A stretch of 50,216 bases of DNA. Origin: Spartobacteria bacterium. Its GTDB lineage: Bacteria; Verrucomicrobiota; Verrucomicrobiia; Chthoniobacterales; UBA10450. Shown piece after piece: positions 1,866-48,468 of the stretch (its first letter is position 1; each line of letters opens with the position of its first letter). The DNA is taken from positions 1-50,216 of the forward strand of contig PNAA01000013.1 of assembly GCA_003169975.1 (NCBI GenBank), in the 5' to 3' direction. A program made the translations under genes and the position numbers. The notes below the pieces were generated by a model. It did no database searches, was not told the origin of the DNA, and saw nothing but the letters and a program-made list of their open reading frames with translations.

Positions 1866-3663
1866 CTGTCGAAAAAGTGGGAGTGCATCGGTTTTTTGGC
1901 TGGCCGGGTGCGTTTGATTTTTGTTAAGCGAATTCATGCCGCGATTCAAGCCTTATGATTATCGGCAGGATTTGATGGTGCCGCTCAAGCTCGAAGCCCA
2001 GTTGCCCGAAGGGAGCCTCGAGTACGCCCTCCATCACCTGATCGAGGAACGGGTGCCCGACGCCTGGTTCGAGGAACTCTACGCGAACGACGAGATCGGC
2101 CGTCCCGCCTACTCGCCCAGGCTGCTCTTGAAAGTGATCCTGCTCGGTTACGCCCGCGGGATCATCGGCTCGCGCCGGCTGGAGCGGGCCTGCCAGGAGA
2201 ACATCACCTTCCTCGCCCTGGCCTGCGGGAGCCGGCCCGATCACAGCACCCTAGCCGCCTTCGTCGGGAAGCTCCAGGGCCGGATCGAATTGATCTTTTC
2301 CGAAGTGCTGCTGGTCTGCCACGAAGAACCCCGAAAGCTTTCGGGGTTAAGTGGGACTCATCTGAGTCTCGATGGCCTCAAGCTGCCGGGCAACGCCTCG
2401 CGCGAGTCGAGCGGCACCTTTGCGCAGTTACGCTTCAAAGCCGACAAGCTGCGGCGCAAGGTGAAGGAACAACTGGCCGAGGACCGACGCCAGGACCGCT
2501 TGGATCGCAAACGCGGCGATCGCACGGCGCAAGAGCGGGCGCAGGAAAAAACCCGCCGCGCCACGACGCGGCAGAAGCTGCTAGCGCAGGCGCAACGGCT
2601 GGAAGGCTTCGTGGCCGAGGAAGAGCCCAGGGCAGGGAGCCGCGGGCAGGAAGTGCAAAGCAATGTGACCGACAACGACTCAGCCAAGATGACGACCAGT
2701 CACGGAGTCATCCAGGGTTACAACGCGCAGGCCCTGGTCGATGGCAAGGAGCAAATCATCGTGCACGGGCGGCCCAGCGGAGTGGGCCAGGACCACGCGC
2801 AGATCGGGCCGGTCCTGGCGGGAGCGAGCGAAGTGCTGGAGTTAGCCGGGTTAAAAGACGAAGTGCTCGTCCCGGGCGCGAGCCAATTGAGCGCGGACTG
2901 CAACTACCATAGCGAGGAGAACCTGCAAGCCTGTGGGCAATATCAAGTCGATGCCTACATTCCCGACAACCACTTCCGGCAGCGTGATGCCCGCTTTGCC
3001 ACCCAGGAACGGCCTAAAAACCGGGTGAAAAAGGAGCGCTTTACCCTGGAAGAGTTCCAGTATGACGAGAAGCGCGATTGCTTTCGCTGTCCCCAAGGGA
3101 AAGTGTGAGCGCTCCACGCCCGGCGGCACCGGACCAACCGGGGAGAGACCTAGCGCCGCTACCGCGCGCGCCGGGCCGACTGCGCCGCCTGTCCCCTGCG
3201 CGCGCAATGCCTGAATCGCGGAGCGGAGCGCAAATCGCTCGCCCTCCCGGTCGCGGCCCGACCCGCCACCTTGAGCGCGCGGATGCGGCAGAAGATCGAT
3301 CAGCCCGAGTCGCGCCGTATCTATGGGCGGCGATTGGCCATCGTCGAACCCGTCTTTGCCAACTTGCGGAGCAACAAACGGCTCGACCGCTTCACCTATC
3401 GGGGAAGAACCAAAGTCAACATCCAATGGTTGCTCTACTGCCTCGTGCATAACCTGGAGAAACTGGCCCATCGCAGCAAGAGGTATGGGCCAAAAAAGCC
3501 TCTTTGTCGTCTTTTGCGGGCTGCTCACCGGCTCCGATACTTCCTCCAAAGCCTGTCCCAGACCCTTAGATCCAGGATCAGTCACTTTTGGTCGCCAAGC
3601 CTTCTTTTTGGGACTTCGGAACCAGGCGACCTCTCCAACCTTCCAGACCTATTTATTCGACAG
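1866..3663 (+). mobile_element. IS1182-family insertion sequence (defective)
   Basis: Imperfect terminal inverted repeats bound the element: CTGTCGAAAAAGTGGG at 1866 and, inverted, CTGTCGAATAAATAGG ending at 3663. The length is about 1.8 kb with one transposase reading frame, typical for IS1182. The flanks both resemble CCT(C)AAC, but a clean target duplication cannot be assigned. The element sits inside an attC site of the left cassette array. Confidence 0.75.
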
Positions 3664-3672
3664 TCCCGTTAG
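1936..3672 (+). pseudogene. IS1182-family transposase with two nonsense codons
   Basis: The frame from ATG 1936 encodes a DUF772-type N-terminus (RPAYSPRLLLKVILLGYARG; SRRLERACQENITFLAL), a lysine/arginine-rich middle helix region and a C-terminal DDE part (DSAKMTTSHGVIQGYNAQ; LSADCNYHS). It stops at TGA 3106-3108 and again at TAG 3151-3153. The same frame then continues with a cysteine cluster (CAACPLRAQC) and the family C-terminus (RRIYGRRLAIVEPVFANLR; VNIQWLLYCLVHNLEKL). Both stops are in-frame substitutions, so the transposase is inactivated without frameshift. The open frame runs past the right inverted repeat to a stop in the attC core at 3670-3672. Confidence 0.8.
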
Positions 3673-4249
3673 GCTCCGTTGGGATGCTCCAGGTAAAGTC
3701 TTCATGTCGTCGATCTAACTCGATAACCTCGGCCGGAGAAAGATAGGTTCCGCCAATCTCGGTGCAGACCGCTCGCAAATCGATGCTGAGCCGGCTGGCT
3801 AGAGCGTCGATGAGCGGGCTAAGCCAAAGAATAAATTCGCGGCGCAGGAAATGAAGTTTCGCAACAGCGTAACCGTAACTGCTAACAATCTGCCCGGTAG
3901 AAGGATCAGTTGCGCCCGGTGACAGGAGAAACGCGCGAGTGCCGTGAACGCTGCTGTGGCCAAGAAACTTGTTTCGCATGTCAACCATTCGCTGATGTCG
4001 AACATTCATTTCGGAATCTGCGTAGTCCGGGTAATTCGGATACTCACATCGAATAGAGCCAATCCCTTCGCTCTCCGTAAAGGGACGATTATAGGCCATG
4101 ACCATAGACACGAAGAGGTGATACCGAATCGGTTTGTGTTCGACGAGAAGTAGAAGTCGACACGCCTCCGTAGCGTAATCCAGGTCCGCACGAGCGCTGA
4201 TCAAGCGGACTAAGCGTGTCCTTGACGGTTTTGGAATATCGGTGGCCAT
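3653..4249 (-). CDS. Hypothetical cassette protein, C-terminus altered by IS1182
   Basis: This 198-residue protein is not recognised. It is soluble, with no signal peptide or membrane segment, mostly helical in character, and rich in Arg and His (RHQRMVDMRNKFLGHSSVHG). It starts six bases from the R' end of the attC site at 4258, the normal position of a cassette ORF. Its last codons, from about PNGTVE, run through the attC R'' core (3668-3674) into the IS1182 inverted repeat, which provides the stop. The native C-terminus is therefore unknown. GC content is clearly lower than that of the IS genes around it. Confidence 0.6.
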   Translation of the reverse strand: MATDIPKPSRTRLVRLISARADLDYATEACRLLLLVEHKPIRYHLFVSMVMAYNRPFTESEGIGSIRCEYPNYPDYADSEMNVRHQRMVDMRNKFLGHSSVHGTRAFLLSPGATDPSTGQIVSSYGYAVAKLHFLRREFILWLSPLIDALASRLSIDLRAVCTEIGGTYLSPAEVIELDRRHEDFTWSIPTEPNGTVE

Positions 4250-4257
4250 GCGCAGGA

Positions 4258-4379
4258 GTCTAAAGAGAACAAGATCAGCGACGGCTACCGGGAGCGAGCG
4301 TTAATCGAAGTGGAAGTGTCTTAATCATGGGAAAACGTGAGCGTACAGCGGTCCGCCGTTCGCTCCATCGCCTTATTGG
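4258..4379 (-). other. attC site of cassette 1, split by IS110-family element
   Basis: On the minus strand this part runs from CCAATAAGGCGATGGAGCG to CTTGTTCTCTTTAGAC (R' core at 4258-4264, mutated from GTTAGAC). It is clearly homologous to the site at 1743-1865, sharing GCGATGGAGCGAACGGC and the CTTGTTCTC end. Its R'' core GCCTAACC lies at 6118-6127, beyond the IS110-family element, directly after the stop of the first cassette ORF. The IS is thus inserted just inside the R'' end. Confidence 0.7.
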
Positions 4380-4380
4380 T

Positions 4381-4749
4381 CATCCAGTAGTTATTCATGG
4401 GCGAGCGGAACGGCCCTCCAAGGCTGGCGGAGCGAGGCTGTGAATAACTCTGCCGCACTCCACAAAATCATGCTTGCTCAGCTTTCCTGTTCTCTTTTCA
4501 TTGCCTCGTTGCGGAAAGATCGCACGCACCGGCCTACTACGAATCTGCATCGCCGATCGCTCGACGATTTTAACCCTAGCTTCGAGTGGAGTCCGGGCGT
4601 GCTTTCATTGCGACCGAATCCTCAGATGACGACCCGTTGCAAGTCCAAACAATAATGCCTTCGCCCAATGAAAGCCAGCCCCGAATGCTTTCGGGGCCAG
4701 CGTGTGGTTGCTCTCCCGCCCAAGAAACCAAACTAGAAAAACCAAGCCA
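4381..4749 (+). ncRNA. Possible IS110 bridge RNA region
   Basis: No protein is supported in this 370-bp stretch. It is the 5' non-coding end of an IS110-type element, the place where that group encodes the bridge RNA that pairs with target and donor DNA. Stem-forming segments are visible: GTTATTCA at 4391 with TGAATAAC at 4439, CGCTC-type inversions between, and CCCCGAATGCTTTCGGGG at 4679-4696. Loop matches to target and donor were not verified. Confidence 0.35.
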
Positions 4750-6066
4750 ATGAAATCAACCGATCATAACGACAGCATCGAGAGAGCGGAAACCGAGGAG
4801 GGCGGCTTTGCCGCGCTCATCGGGCTGGACTGGGGCAGCGAAGAGCACGCCCTCTGTCTGCACGATTGCACGACTGGCGCGCGCGAAAGCTCCACCCTCG
4901 AGCACATCCCCGAAGCCATCGCGCGCTGGGCGGCCGCGCTGGAGAGGCGCTTCCCCGAGCGCCCGATCGCCCTCTGCCTGGAGCAAGCCAAAGGCGCCCT
5001 CATCTCCGCGCTCATGGCTTATCCCTTCCTCGTGCTCTACCCGGTCAACCCGGCCACCGCCGCACGCTACCGCCAGGCCTTTAAGACCAGTCGGGCCAAG
5101 AGCGATCCCTCCGACGCGCAGGTCTGCCTCGAGTTGCTCCTCCAGCACCGCGAAAAACTGAGTCCCTGGCGGCCCAACGATCCCCAGACGCGCGCCCTCA
5201 CCCGTCTGCTGGAACATCGCCGCGGCACGGTCGATTTGCGCACCCTGCTTACCAACATGCTGCGCGACGCGCTCAAGAGCTACTATCCCCAGGCGCTGGC
5301 GCTGGCCGGCCAGGATCTCTTTGCCCCGTTGGCTTGTCAGTTCCTCCTCAAGTGGCCTTCGCTACAACAACTGCAAAAGGCGAGAAAAGAGACCGTGCGT
5401 AAGTTCTACTACGCGCATAACTGCCGCCGTTTGGATGTGATCAATAAACGTCTCGACGCGCTCGCTGCGATGATCCCCCTCACAAGCGACCAGGCGGTGC
5501 TTGCGCCCGCCAAAGTCCACGTCACCATGCTGACGCGCCAGTTACTCCAGCTCGCGGTGGCGCTCAAAGAGTACGACGCGCGCATCGCGCAGCTCTTCGC
5601 TCGGCAGGCCGACGCTTTCATCTGGAAAAGCTTCCCCGGCGCCGGCCCCACTCTCGCGCCACGGCTCGCCTGCGCCTTCGGCAGTGAACACTCCCGCTAC
5701 CAGAGCGCCGCCGCCCTCCAACAATACAGCGGCATTGCTCCGGTCACCGAACGCAGCGGCAAAAACCAGCACTGGGTCCATCGCCGCTGGGCGCAGCCCC
5801 ACTTCGTCCATCAGACCTTCTTCGAGTACGCCCATCAATCCGTCCTGCACTGCGCCTGGGCCAAACTCTATGTACAGGAGCAGATGGCCAAAGGCAAAAA
5901 GCATCCCACCGCCGTGCGCGCCCTGGCCTTTAAGTGGCAGCGCATCATGTTCGTCTGCTGGCGCGACCGCGTTGCCTATGATGAAGCCACTTACCTCCAC
6001 AGTCTCAAACGCCGCGGCTCACCCCTCGCCGCCAAACTCGCACTCACCCTCCAAAAAGCGGCATGA
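4750..6066 (+). CDS. IS110-family transposase (intact)
   Basis: The 438-residue recombinase has the IS110 family layout. The N-terminal RuvC-like DEDD domain has D27 (LIGLDWGSEEHAL), E78 (LCLEQAKGAL) and the D119/D122 pair (SRAKSDPSDAQ). A coiled middle follows, then a C-terminal Transposase_20 domain (SFPGAGPTLAPRLACAFG; QQYSGIAPVTERSGKN) carrying the serine region. Start ATG 4750 was chosen over the upstream in-frame TTG 4702 because the family N-terminus begins shortly before the first aspartate. The reading frame is uninterrupted, so the element may still be active, unlike the neighbouring IS1182. It is transcribed opposite to the integron cassettes that it splits. Confidence 0.85.
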   Translation: MKSTDHNDSIERAETEEGGFAALIGLDWGSEEHALCLHDCTTGARESSTLEHIPEAIARWAAALERRFPERPIALCLEQAKGALISALMAYPFLVLYPVNPATAARYRQAFKTSRAKSDPSDAQVCLELLLQHREKLSPWRPNDPQTRALTRLLEHRRGTVDLRTLLTNMLRDALKSYYPQALALAGQDLFAPLACQFLLKWPSLQQLQKARKETVRKFYYAHNCRRLDVINKRLDALAAMIPLTSDQAVLAPAKVHVTMLTRQLLQLAVALKEYDARIAQLFARQADAFIWKSFPGAGPTLAPRLACAFGSEHSRYQSAAALQQYSGIAPVTERSGKNQHWVHRRWAQPHFVHQTFFEYAHQSVLHCAWAKLYVQEQMAKGKKHPTAVRALAFKWQRIMFVCWRDRVAYDEATYLHSLKRRGSPLAAKLALTLQKAA

Positions 6067-6117
6067 GTTGCCAGTCAATAACTTCATTCAAAATCCTTGA
6101 CGGACGACCTCAGATGT

Positions 6118-6127
6118 ATGGTTAGGC
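6118..6127 (-). other. R'' core of the IS110-split attC site
   Basis: GCCTAACCAT on the minus strand follows the TGA stop of the ORF at 6128 directly. It is the missing 5' core of the attC remainder at 4258-4379. Confidence 0.6.
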
Positions 6128-6586
6128 TCATTTTACCAGCGACAGATAATCTCGCAGTTGCAGCTCATATTGGCCCGCGCCTACCTCCAAGCCCCACTCG
6201 GCCTTTGTGGTATACTCTATGTGTAGTTCCATTTTCTCGGCGAACTTGGGGATCGCGATGATATCAAAGGTGTCTTCCACATGAGCTTTGTCCGTCTGAT
6301 AAAGGAACTCAAAGAAGGTCGCAAGGTCCTGGCCACGCCAATCCACAATGTGCACGACACAATTGTGTGCTGTGCTGCCACCGAGCCGGTGCGGTATTGT
6401 GAACTTAAACCAGATCGTGTCTGGAGGCCACTCCTTGGGACGACTTGGCAGCGAAGATTCTGACCGAGCTGTGATGTGAATATAGAAACCGCCGGGCGCC
6501 TCGGTAGCACCCTTTTGGAGCCGGAATGTATTTGACGGCTGCGCGCCAACACTGGAAGCCACTAGCCAAGTGGGTAATGGCAACAT
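6128..6586 (-). CDS. Hypothetical cassette protein (first cassette)
   Basis: This 152-residue protein has no family that I recognise. The composition suggests a beta-rich soluble domain (GGFYIHITARSES; DTIWFKFTIPHRLGG; HIEYTTKAEWGLEVGAGQYE). The N-terminus is not a clear signal peptide. ATG 6586 lies about 20 bp after the GTTAGGT core of the site at 6603, and the stop abuts an attC R'' core, the tight packing expected of a cassette. It is the cassette nearest to the integrase gene and is on the same strand. GC content is lower than in the chromosomal genes. Confidence 0.55.
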   Translation of the reverse strand: MLPLPTWLVASSVGAQPSNTFRLQKGATEAPGGFYIHITARSESSLPSRPKEWPPDTIWFKFTIPHRLGGSTAHNCVVHIVDWRGQDLATFFEFLYQTDKAHVEDTFDIIAIPKFAEKMELHIEYTTKAEWGLEVGAGQYELQLRDYLSLVK

Positions 6587-6667: not shown

Positions 6668-7720
6668 TTATTCGGGTTGGGGCATGTCGAGTGGACTGCG
6701 AATGTTCAGCCCGGGTTTGTTGAGCACGTGGGTGTAAATCATTGTCGTCGAAACAGCGCGGTGCCCGAGCAACTCTTGAACGGTGCGAATATCATAACCC
6801 GCTTCCAGGAGGTGGGTAGCAAAACTATGGCGGAATGTATGGCCGCGTAAAAGCTTGCTGCTTTTGCAGTTTTGCTCACGCGGTTTTGCGGAAGGGATGC
6901 TTTTGCGCATGGAATAACAGCTGTTTCAATTGAAATTTTCGGCCCGCTCCACTTTTGAGGAACTTCTCTCGCCCGGTCGCGTCCGCCTCCTCTGTCTAGG
7001 CTTCATAATAAATTAACCTCCATGGACCTCGATAGGAAGTCGCAAATGCAACCCCACTATTGTGCTCGCGTAGCCTCTTCCGCAGGTTGGCTGAGTAGCC
7101 AATGTATAGACCGCCATCGGTGTTAGATTGCAGGACATACACGTAAAACATCGCGAAAGCATACCTCGTCAAGGCACGTGAGCGAAGCTTTTACGAGCCC
7201 ATAAAGAAGTTCAGCCATGAGCCGGTAATCAGCCGAGAGATGGGCGAGGACGGCGTGGGCCTCCTTCTTTGTCAGGACAACAGGCAGTTTCGGCGGACGT
7301 TTGACGCGCTCAACCCCAGCGAGGTAATCGAGTTTTCGGTCGAGGACCTGTTGGTAGAGAAAGAGGAGGGCGCTGAAGGCCTGGTTTTGAGTGGATGCCG
7401 CGACCCGGCCGTGGATGGCAAGATGGCTGAGGAAGGCGGCGATTTCCTCCTCGCCCATCTCGTCGGGATGGCGTTTGCGGTGAAAGAGGATGTAGCGCCG
7501 GATCCCAGTCGGTGTAGGCTTGCTCGGTGCGGATGCTGTAATGCTTGACGCGCAGATGCCAGCGGACGCGGTCGAGGAGTTTAGGCTTGGAAGGGGGAAG
7601 GCGATCGGCCGCCCGCGGGGGCGGTGCGACGTGGACGTGGGCGGCACGGACGGGGCTGGGAGTTGGGCGGGTCGAATCGATCACGGCTGCTTTTCTGGCA
7701 GGTTCGCGGAGCGGAGGCAA
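6668..7720 (-). pseudogene. intI: Integron integrase IntI, frameshifted and internally replaced
   Basis: The N-terminal part is recognisable as IntI (PKLLDRVRWHLRVKHYSIRT; EEEIAAFLSHLAIHGRVAAS; ALLFLYQQVL) up to AELLYG. The C-terminal part resumes with [20 protein letters not shown] and [15 protein letters not shown], giving the H-x2-R, the late H and the Tyr nucleophile. One extra base in a GGG run near 7505 shifts frame after EQAYTDW. Between LLYG and HTFRH the central catalytic Arg and the IntI-specific helix are missing and a GIY-YIG ORF occupies the space. The enzyme cannot be functional. It lies just upstream, in the same orientation, of three cassettes, so it is the likely former recombinase of this array. 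Confidence 0.85.
6876..7151 (-). pseudogene. GIY-YIG (YhbQ/UPF0213-like) nuclease ORF with in-frame stop
   Basis: The frame from ATG 7151 begins MFYVYVLQSNTDGGLYIGYS, holding the GIY-YIG pair (YVY at 3-5, YIG at 16-18), then R24 and LRKRLREHNSG and RGPWRLIYYEA. At codon 52 (6996-6998) a TAG interrupts. The same frame continues with TEEADATGREKFLKSGAGRK, the usual family C-terminus, up to TGA 6876. A normal protein would be about 85-90 residues. The ORF sits exactly in the gap of the integrase gene and overlaps the start of the remaining 3' integrase part. It was evidently inserted or recombined into intI and then decayed. Confidence 0.75.
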
Positions 7721-27533: not shown

Positions 27534-28604
27534 CTACTTCAGCGGTTCGAGCAGGTAATCCGATTTATCCCAGAGGTACTTCAACTGGATCTGTATTTCC
27601 CTGATCGCCGAGGCGGAGGTTCCGGCGCCTGCGATAATGATCACATCATTTGTGCCGGCCTTCAAGATCGAGGCGGGCACGACCTTCTGTGCTCGGACCC
27701 AGCCGGTATATTGGAATTGCATCGTTTGCAGGAGCGAAAGTGAAAGGCCGCGATAAGCCGGATCAGCCAGATCGGGGAGGACGAGCGAGGCGGGGCCGAC
27801 ATCCTCGCCATTCACGTAGATTTCCGGGGGCAGTTCGATCTGCGGGCTCGCGACTTCGAAAGTAAGCAGCGCGACGAGCGGCTGCGCTTCGAGGCCGAAC
27901 TGAAAAGCCGCGCCGTTTTGCATGCTCGATCCCATCGGGATCGTCTCGGCGGCCAGCGGCGCGGTCACGGCTCCAAAAACCTCCGCGTCTTCTTCGCCCG
28001 TCTTGAGGGGCGCCGGCCCGCCAAAGGGATCAGCCATCAACTTCTGCTGCTCGGCATGCAGTGGGCGCATCACCTGGCTGGTTTTCATCCAATCGAGATA
28101 GGCGCCGCGGACCGAGCGTCCGTTGCCCGGTACTTCGACGTCGATCGCCGTCACGCCGATCATCGGGACGATGGTGGTGGAGGAAGTGGCGAGGCCGGTT
28201 TTTTGGCCTAACGAGCCGGAGTGGAGCAGCTGGGTGCCTGATTCATCCCAGGCAATGATCTCGGGTTGCGCCGCGGGCTGGTCATCGAAATAGAGACGGA
28301 AGAGAAGCAGCTGACAGTCTTCGTCCGGCCTCGTTAGGCGAATGCGGAACACGCTTTTGGTTGGCGCATCGGCCGACGCCTTGCCCGGCGTAAACGAAAC
28401 CGATTCCACCCAGGGCGGCGCCACCTGCACCTTCGAGTGCGCCGCATTATTCTGGCGCAGATCGAGCCATGCGCTGTCGGGCGCGGCCTGCGCGGATTGG
28501 CTCGAGCGGAGCACTTGCGCGCCTTCCGGCGGTAAGGCCTGTTGGGCGCGAGCCGCGGAAACCAGGCCGAGCAGGAGAGCGAGCGCGACGGGGCGAAAGA
28601 ACAT
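27534..28604 (-). CDS. Secreted protein of the T2SS locus, unknown
   Basis: The 356-residue protein has a signal peptide (FFRPVALALLLGLVSAARA). The rest is beta-rich with two similar-looking halves (FRIRLTRPDEDCQLLLFRLY; VALLTFEVASPQIELPPEIY ... NDVIIIAGAGTSASAIREIQ), reminiscent of galactose-binding-like sandwiches. It sits between gspF (upstream) and gspG (downstream) on the same strand, 18 bp from each, so it is co-transcribed and probably works with the secretion system. I recognise no named family. Two heptamer copies lie in it (28208, 28331). Confidence 0.6.
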   Translation of the reverse strand: MFFRPVALALLLGLVSAARAQQALPPEGAQVLRSSQSAQAAPDSAWLDLRQNNAAHSKVQVAPPWVESVSFTPGKASADAPTKSVFRIRLTRPDEDCQLLLFRLYFDDQPAAQPEIIAWDESGTQLLHSGSLGQKTGLATSSTTIVPMIGVTAIDVEVPGNGRSVRGAYLDWMKTSQVMRPLHAEQQKLMADPFGGPAPLKTGEEDAEVFGAVTAPLAAETIPMGSSMQNGAAFQFGLEAQPLVALLTFEVASPQIELPPEIYVNGEDVGPASLVLPDLADPAYRGLSLSLLQTMQFQYTGWVRAQKVVPASILKAGTNDVIIIAGAGTSASAIREIQIQLKYLWDKSDYLLEPLK

Positions 28605-36105: not shown

Positions 36106-39100
36106 ATGTCCGCCCACTCCTTCGTTCATCTCCATCTGCACACCGAGTATTCGCTCCTCGATGGCGCGGTGCGTATGAAGGGGCTGATGGAGAAAGCAGC
36201 GGCGATGAAAATGCCCGCGGTCGCGATCACCGATCACGGCAACCTCTACGGAGCGATTGAATTTTATCAGGCGGCGGCGGAGGTCGGGATCAAACCGATC
36301 ATTGGCGTTGAGGCTTATATGGCTCCCGGTACGATCAGAGACCGACCAAATTCGCAGCGCGACGCGGCGAATCATTTCACCCTCCTCGCGCGCAACGAAG
36401 CCGGCTATCGCAATCTCGTTAGGCTGATGTCGACCGCGCATCTCGAAGGCATGCATTACAAGCCGCGGATCGATAAGGAACTGCTCGCCGCGCATTCCGA
36501 GGGTTTGATCGGAATGAGCGCGTGCCTCAAGGGCGAAATCAACATGGCGATCCAAGCCGATCAGCTTGATAAGGCGCGCGCGAGCGCGGCGACCTTTCGC
36601 GACATCCTTGGGGCGGAGAATTTCTTCCTTGAGTTGCACGATCACGGTCTCGAGGCGCAACGAAAATGCAACCGCGTCCTCCCGGCGATCGCGCGGGAAT
36701 TTGGGCTCGGTTTGGTGGCGGCGAATGACGTGCATTTTCTCGAAAGAAGTCACCACGAAGCGCACGACGTGATGATCTGCATCGGCACCCAAAAAATGGT
36801 GCACGACGAGAAGCGGATGCGCTACACCCCGGAGCTTTACTTCAAGAGCGCCGACGAAATGCGCGCTCTCTTTCCGGACCATCCGGAAGCGATCTCAAAT
36901 ACCGTTGCGATTGCCGAGGGCTGCGACTTGAAACTGGAATTTGGAACCTCGAAATTCCCGGAGTACGCGGCGCCGGTAGGCACGACGCGCGAACAATACC
37001 TCCGCGAATTGTGCGCGACTGGTTTGCGTAAGCGCTTCGGCGACCGCGCGGCGTCGGATGCGGACCTCCTCGCGCGCTTGAACAAGGAGCTCGCCGTCCT
37101 CGAGAAGACCGGCTTCGTCAGCTACTTCCTGATTGTTTGGGATTTCATTCATTTCGCCAAGCAGCGCGGCATCCCGGTCGGCCCGGGCCGCGGCTCAGCG
37201 GCCGGCTCGCTCATCGCCTACGTGCTCGAAATCACCGACATCGATCCGCTCCAATTTGGTTTGCAGTTCGAACGTTTTCTCAATCCGGAGCGCGTTTCGC
37301 CGCCGGATATCGACGTTGATTTTTGCGAAGCGCGCCGCGGGGAAGTGCTCGAATACGTGCGGCAAAAATACGGCGAGCGCCGCGTTTCTCAGATCATCAC
37401 TTTCGGGAAACTGAAAGCGAAAAGCGTGGTGCGCGACGTCGGCCGGGTGATGGGCCTGAGCTACGGCGACTGCGACCGGATCGCGAAGATGATCCCTAAC
37501 GAGTTGAACATCACGCTCGCGGCCGCCGCCGAGAAAACGCCGGAATTAAAGAAAGCAATCGAGACCGAACCGGCGACGCGCCAACTTTGGGAATACGCCG
37601 GTCTGCTCGAAGGCCTTTCGCGCAACGCCGGGGTGCACCCCGCCGGAGTCGTGATTGGCGATCGCGATCTGTCGGAATACGTCCCGCTCTGCCGCGACTC
37701 GAAGGGCAACGATATCGTCAGTCAGTACGCGATGGGACCGCTGAACGATCTCGGACTGCTGAAGATGGATTTCCTCGGCCTGAAAACGCTCACCGTGATC
37801 GAGGACACGCTCACGTTGATCCACCAGCGCGCGCCAAACTTCTCGCTCAAAAGCATTCCGCTCGATGACGCCCCCGCCTTCGGACTTTTCAATCGCGGTG
37901 AAACGGTCGGCCTTTTCCAGATGGAATCGACCGGCATGACCAGTGTCTCGAAACAGATGGACGTGCAGAAGCTTGACGACATCATGGCCCTGATCGCGCT
38001 CTATCGCCCCGGCCCGATGGATACGATCGGCGACTACATCGAGCGCAAGCGCGGCCTGAAGCAAATCCGTTATGTCCACCCGCTCCTGGAGGAAGTCTGC
38101 GCCGACACCTACGGAGTGATGATCTACCAGGAGCAGGTGACGGCGGCGGCCAACCGCCTCGCCGGCTTTTCGTTAGGCCAGTCGGACCTTCTCCGGCGCG
38201 CGATGGGGAAAAAGGACAAGGGCAAGATGGCGAAAGAGCGCGCGAGTTTCGTCGAGGGTTGCGCGCGCACGAACAAGATTCCCGAGAAAAAGGCGAACGC
38301 GATTTTCGATTTGCTCGAGAAATTCGCCGGCTACGGATTCAACAAAAGCCACAGTGCCGCCTACGGCGTGATCAGCTACCAGACGGCCTACCTCAAGGCG
38401 CACTATCCGGTTGAATTCATGGCCGGTTTGCTGAGCAACGAGATCAACAACACCGACAAGATTTCGATCTTCGTCGGCGAGTGCAAGCGAATGGGGATTC
38501 CGATTCTGCCGCCGGACATGAACCGGAGCAGCCTGAAATTTGTCCCGGAGGGACGTGCTTCTGCACGTCCTCGTTCTTCCCCAGGCGACGCTTTCGAGAC
38601 TGGACGTGCGGAAGCACGTCCCTCCGACGCCATTCGTTACGGACTCGCCGCGATCAAGAACGTCGGTGAAGGGGCAATCGCGGCCGCGATCGGGGAACGC
38701 GAGCGGGGAGGGGACTTCACCTCGCTCGAAGATTTTTGCAGCCGGCTCGATTCGCGCCTCGCCAATCGCAAGATCATTGAGAGCCTCGTCAAAGCCGGCG
38801 CCTTCGATTTTCTCGGCCGCGATCGCGCCGAGCTTTTCGCCTGTATCGAGGAAACACTCGCCGCCTCGGCCTCTTCTCATCGCGATCGCGCCGCCGGCCA
38901 GGTTTCGCTTTTCGGAGATCTCCCTCATCCGACCATCACCCGCGGAAATCGCGAGTATGCGCAATGGACGGAGCGCGAGAAATTGTCCTTCGAGAAAGAA
39001 CTGCTCGGCTTCTACGTCACCGGCCATCCGCTCGATGCCTACGCGCCGCTCTTCGCCAGCGGAAAATATCAGACCATCGCATCGTTAGGCGAGCTGGCCG

Positions 39101-47447: not shown

Positions 47448-47570
47448 GTCTAACGAGAACAACAATGAGCTGCGGCGAGCGCGAGCGCGCATGGCTCGCA
47501 GTAAAGAGTGTTTTGTCATCTAAATGTGAACCCCGAACGGGCAGCGGCTGGCGCTATCGTCCGGTTAGGC
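47448..47570 (-). other. attC site
   Basis: The 123-bp site has both cores at consensus: R'' GCCTAAC (47564-47570) and R' GTTAGAC (47448-47454). It ends in GTTGTTCTCGTTAGAC, as do the left-array sites, and lies between the stop of the DUF4386 gene and the start of the SnoaL gene, as required between two cassettes. Confidence 0.75.
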
Positions 47571-48346: not shown

Positions 48347-48468
48347 ACCTTACGAGAACAAGATCAGCCACCGCTGGCGGAGGCAAGCATCAATCGCAAT
48401 CGGCGAGTCTTAATAAACGGAAGCAAGGCCGTACGGTTGCCGGCGGCCGGTTGCACGGCTGGTTAGAC
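48347..48468 (-). other. attC site
   Basis: The 122-bp site has R'' GTCTAAC (48462-48468) and a mutated R' GTAAGGT (48347-48353). It ends with GGCTGATCTTGTTCTCG, identical over most of its length to the end of the left-array site at 4258-4290. It lies 18 bp after the CPBP gene stop. Confidence 0.65.

Follow-up and report, generated by a model that had tools for sequence, protein, structure and literature searches.

Structure of the Locus

The window analyzed here is a 50,216-nt stretch of contig PNAA01000013.1 (assembly GCA_003169975.1) of a Spartobacteria bacterium belonging to the Verrucomicrobiota. It contains an integron cassette array in which an IS110-family transposase gene is flanked by two cassette ORFs (3656-4249 and 6131-6586); no family match was found for either of them. 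The mobile element carrying the transposase gene extends from position 4372 to position 6117 (1,746 bp) and interrupts an attC site of the array. The transposase is encoded by an intact ORF (4750-6066, plus strand), is 438 aa in length and belongs to the DEDD type, with matches to PF01548 (E 3.8e-21) and PF02371 (E 2.8e-9). It scores 143.5 bits against NF033542, the cut-off of which is 140 bits, and the residues D27, E78, D119, and D122, as well as the SG motif, are conserved. The 5′ non-coding region (NCR) is about 370 bp long, and only about 50 bp lie between the stop codon of the gene and the right end (RE) of the element.

The register of the two-base core was set from two sources: relatives whose empty sites are available and the spacing of attC in the bacterium's own genome. 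In the closest of the well-represented relatives, the right terminus is TTGACGGACNNCTCAG and the left start is TATAG; the empty sites of a sister element from enterobacterial plasmids (L115, L117, and L118) identify the two bases before TATAG as the core. The RE of the window element, TTGACGGACGACCTCAGATGT, occupies positions 6097-6117 (plus strand), and its left end (LE), TATTGG, is located at 4374-4379 (plus strand), in the place of TATAG. It is preceded by the left copy of the core dinucleotide, CT (4372-4373, plus strand). No relatives more than 52% identical were found in genome contigs, viral contigs, or plasmids.

Interrupted attC Site and Its Empty Counterpart

The interrupted attC lies on the minus strand, with R″ at 6127-6121 and the rest at 4371-4258. 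A reading made earlier from the sequence alone (hereafter, the sequence-only reading) had described an intact IS110-family element inside an attC, the halves of which were placed at 6118-6127 and 4258-4379. The intact element was confirmed, and the right half is indeed composed of the core AT (6118-6119), C6120, and R″ GCCTAAC (6127-6121). The left half had to be shortened: it ends at 4371, and the sequence from 4374 on is the LE of the element. The remainder of the site (4258-4371, minus strand), from L″ to L′ and a degenerate R′ (4264-4258), is 78% identical to the uninterrupted attC at 1745-1855. Since its R′ is TTTAGAC instead of GTTAGRC, the interrupted attC may already have been weak. 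When the two halves of the window attC are joined, their folding is not unusually good (z −1.2).

The left target flank, GCTCCATCGC, terminates at 4371, and the predicted target is GCTCCATCGC-[CT/AT]-GGTTAGGC, with the empty-site form GCTCCATCGC-AT-GGTTAGG. The joined site ACCTAACCATGCGATGG is present, unoccupied and without mismatches, in an intact attC elsewhere in the genome (C49:220254-220270). The right-end junction CCTAACCAT/ACATCTGAGG occurs three times in the genome (in C1, in C14, and in the window), while the reversed-pattern control gave zero matches; the window junction was not found in viral contigs. The right-end remnants in C1 and C14 have the identical junction and differing outer flanks. 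A common inner truncation beside a piece of a glycosyltransferase gene can be noted in the right-end remnants (L002, about 1440-1660, and L003, about 330-540), the outer flanks of which differ.

Bridge RNA and Its Guides

The NCRs of 43 relatives were aligned with the window left out, and the RNAalifold structure of this alignment was used to build a covariance model (CM R1). The consensus is made up of two stem-loops with bulges; of its 34 pairs, 28 have changes on both sides. The counts of covarying pairs exceed those of 500 out of 500 shuffles and collapse after a one-column shift of the partners. In the window, CM R1 detects a bridge RNA at 4511-4681 (plus strand; 64.7 bits, E 4.3e-16; next-best match, 9.7 bits), with the target-binding loop at about 4524-4600 and the donor-binding loop at about 4601-4676. 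This is the sole convincing match in the genome. Thus, the bridge RNA suspected by the sequence-only reading in the 5′ NCR was recovered by a model built independently of the window. An Rfam scan of the window found no RNA family. The NCR also has a 5′ stem-loop (4389-4449, plus strand; AGTTATTCA ... TGAATAACT), the same arms of which are present in L012, L013, and L019. The model detects the same RNA 5′ of the transposase gene in most relatives; in L029, tandem copies of the bridge RNA (185-354 and 493-662) are located 5′ of a single transposase gene.

The positions of the guides were taken from the CM alignment, strict regex extraction having missed most loci. The left target guide (LTG), CUGCAUCGCC (4545-4554, plus strand), matches the left attC flank CTCCATCGCC at 8 of 9 positions; none of 67 other LTGs equals this score, and P is 0.002 on random 14-mers. 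The right target guide (RTG), UUUUAACCCUAGC (4568-4580, plus strand), matches the R″ flank at 7 of 9 positions, and its segment UUUUAACC pairs with GGTTAGG of R″, with two G-U pairs. The left donor guide (LDG), CCUCAGAUG (4620-4628, plus strand), is identical to RE positions 6108-6116 (CCTCAGATG, 9/9). The right donor guide (RDG), CCAAACAAUAA (4645-4655, plus strand), complements the left end TTATTGG, by inspection only, in a discontiguous manner; such discontiguous RDG pairing was described for IS621 (PMC11208160). The matches of the loops to the attC flanks and to the element ends, which had been anticipated, were found at the expected positions.

The correspondence between guides and flanks extends to the related elements. 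In about 60 relatives, the summed match of LTGs to their own flanks is 413 versus a mean of 296 and a maximum of 322 in 2,000 permutations, and that of RTGs is 401 versus 299 and 322, respectively. A guide–flank mismatch was noted in L053, where the right guide is TAACAT and the right flank, ATGCTGGCC, lacks GTTA. The window element, with its two G-U pairs, would agree with the idea that the R/R positions of R″ are tolerated by U residues in the RTG, but most attC-targeting relatives do not, and the idea was dropped.

Alternative Explanations

In our opinion, it is highly probable that the window element is an intact insertion sequence of the IS110 subgroup, the 5′ NCR of which encodes a bridge RNA with guides directed at integron attC sites. 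Several observations weigh against this reading. The genome contains only one complete copy of the element. The two copies of the core are unequal, CT on the left and AT on the right. The LTG has a single mismatch to its target, and the RTG has two mismatches, partly G-U. The right ends in C1 and C14 may not be fully independent insertions, because the inner truncation is common to both. Taken as a whole, the NCR (311 nt) is not more stably folded than its shuffles (z −0.73), and the separate loops reach z −2.1 (target loop) and z −1.6 (donor loop).

Among the alternatives, the one that survives best, though improbable, is that the RNA-like match is a relic and that the immobile element owes its position to homologous recombination or to the integron integrase. 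The mutated R′ and the adjacent intI pseudogene, which make the locus look old, speak in its favor, as does the weak fold of the donor-binding loop. However, the ORF is intact, the catalytic residues are conserved, the ends are intact, and the donor guide is identical to RE. In addition, the cleavage site of integron integrase is within R′ and not in the R″–L″ interval. It is very unlikely that the attC location is incidental and that the element recognizes another short motif or inserts loosely. Such an explanation would agree with the single complete copy, but not with the three identical junctions, the exact empty attC in the same genome, the guides matching the attC flanks, and the repeated occurrence of relatives in attCs. 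The least probable explanation is that this is a member of the known IS1111-attC group with a different appearance: the target class, one attC end, is that of ISKpn4, ISPst6, and ISPa21 (PMC11187229, PMC11616780), but the long NCR with the RNA is 5′, 11-13 bp inverted repeats near the ends are absent, the transposase is longer (438 aa versus 330-350), the guides stand in the order of IS110, left (bottom strand) before right (top strand) (PMC11187229), and the family profile matches the structures of IS621 and ISCro4.

Assignment to the IS110 Subgroup

IS1111 elements are characterized by sub-terminal inverted repeats (sTIR) of 11-13 bp, a 3′ NCR, a transposase of 330-350 aa, and the top-strand guide placed first, whereas in IS110 elements the NCR is 5′ and the bottom-strand guide comes first; the branch that includes IS110 itself has transposases of 395-455 aa (PMC11187229). 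No sTIR of 11-13 bp was found near the ends of the window element; the best candidate has 9 bp with one mismatch, at offsets 15 and 34. Its LTG lies 5′ of the RTG, each matching its target, and the family profile matches IS621 and ISCro4 at about 74 bits. All IS110 features that can be checked on the sequence are present, and none of the IS1111-specific ones is. The assignment to the IS110 subgroup and not to the IS1111-attC group, which the sequence-only reading had suggested, is thus supported; it rests on architecture, because in the transposase tree with IS4321 and ISEc21 the outgroup branches are at the length limit and the placement of the IS1111 reference is uninformative.

The window element shares with IS621, ISCro4, and ISEc21 a DEDD transposase with a C-terminal Ser domain, the 5′ NCR, the two-loop bridge RNA, the order LTG–RTG, the two-base core, and the discontiguous RDG. 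It differs from them in belonging to the long 395-455 aa branch and in having attC as its target. IS621 targets REP-like sites. ISEc21 targets IS3 elements, at a linear site (PMC11187229). Targeting of attC is a trait of the IS1111-attC group, which inserts likewise at one attC end but differs in the 3′ NCR, the sTIRs, the shorter transposase, and the reversed guide order. The sister elements from enterobacterial plasmids and prophages (L023 and L104-L113) have the same RNA architecture and ends, and their transposase is 42% identical; however, their guides read a palindromic insertion site, GTCCGCTTTGTGCCA-GAAGCGGAC, and not attC.

Related Elements and Probable Repeated Origin of attC Targeting

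Among the 94 loci of relatives surveyed, an R″-like GTTRRR/GTTA sequence immediately past the right end was found in about 21, and TAAC is frequent in their right guides. Seven relatives (L041, L048, L056, L061, L077, L081, and L093) have further homologous attCs on their own contig, in which the unoccupied sequence is visible. Neither arm-complementarity scoring of attCs nor a stricter attC finder was discriminating (p < 0.05 in only 2 of 12 loci), and the attC status of relatives therefore rests on these same-contig copies. The remaining relatives flanked by R″ are probably also in attC, judging from the R″ match alone. The right guides of four cyanobacterial relatives (L021, L034, L057, and L070) contain TAACA; a GTTA-type right flank is present in all three in which the right end was detected (not in L070).

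On a quick phylogenetic tree, the attC label, which includes probable cases, requires 10 changes, at least four of them forced by well-supported branches. The window element falls outside the attC clade of marine Gammaproteobacteria. Because either gain or loss could account for each change and probable cases are counted under the label, a repeated origin of attC targeting is likely, not proven. With moderate confidence, we regard attC as a target on which the IS110 subgroup has converged repeatedly. Bridge RNAs whose TAAC-type right guides read the invariant R″ core would have arisen several times across phyla, independently of the IS1111-attC group: in Verrucomicrobiota, in Colwelliaceae and other marine Gammaproteobacteria, in a contig binned as Patescibacteria, and probably in others. 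Integron arrays would then be a shared harbor for RNA-guided transposons.

Other Features of the Array

The integron integrase gene adjoining the array (6671-7647, minus strand) is a pseudogene that retains only positions 26-127 and 252-313 of the model; full-length integrases are encoded at two other places in the genome (C33 and C43). A frameshifted IS1182-like element (1921-3672, plus strand) is located between the cassette ORF 3656-4249 and the attC at 1745-1855. More attC-like sites are found on the contig at a distance from the integrase remnant (28206-28339, 39074-39090, 47448-47570, and 48354-48422).

Proposed Mechanism of Insertion

By analogy with IS621 (PMC11208160) and ISEc21/ISKpn4 (PMC11187229), we infer a circular intermediate, promoter activity, expression of the RNA, and transposition. 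Circular excision would join RE and LE, giving the predicted circle junction ..CTCAGATGT-CT-TATTGG... This junction would create a promoter, TTGACG-N17-TATTGG, in which TATTGG serves as the −10 element and which would drive the bridge RNA and tnp. The donor loop would hold the RE/LE junction via the LDG and RDG, while the target loop would read double-stranded attC between L″ and R″, the LTG pairing with CTCCATCGC and the RTG with GGTTAGG. The bridge RNA would pair with both attC strands around the two-base core. The DEDD/Ser recombinase would exchange strands at the two-base NT core, splitting the attC in two without target duplication. In a target bearing GCTCCATCGCATGGTTAGGC, insertion would be expected at the AT core.

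Significance

Targeting of attC by the IS110 subgroup was not reported in the searchable literature, where only the IS1111 group is described for attC, and its novelty is provisional. In the work of Durrant (2024), attC is mentioned only in the references, and in a survey of Shewanella integrons, IS110-family elements were found in the arrays, none of them in attC (PMC9229058).

The finding points to a second branch of this RNA-guided family, besides IS1111, that homes on integrons. Two architecturally different IS110/IS1111 branches would have converged on the same integron site, with a guide directed to the portion of attC whose conservation the integrase itself requires. Within one transposase clade, the guides directed to attC and to palindromic repeats make up a natural guide/target series, from which the evolutionary reprogramming of bridge RNAs can be studied. 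The element also flags a class of insertion sequences that may disrupt the mobility of gene cassettes beyond the clinical integrons in which the IS1111-attC group was described.
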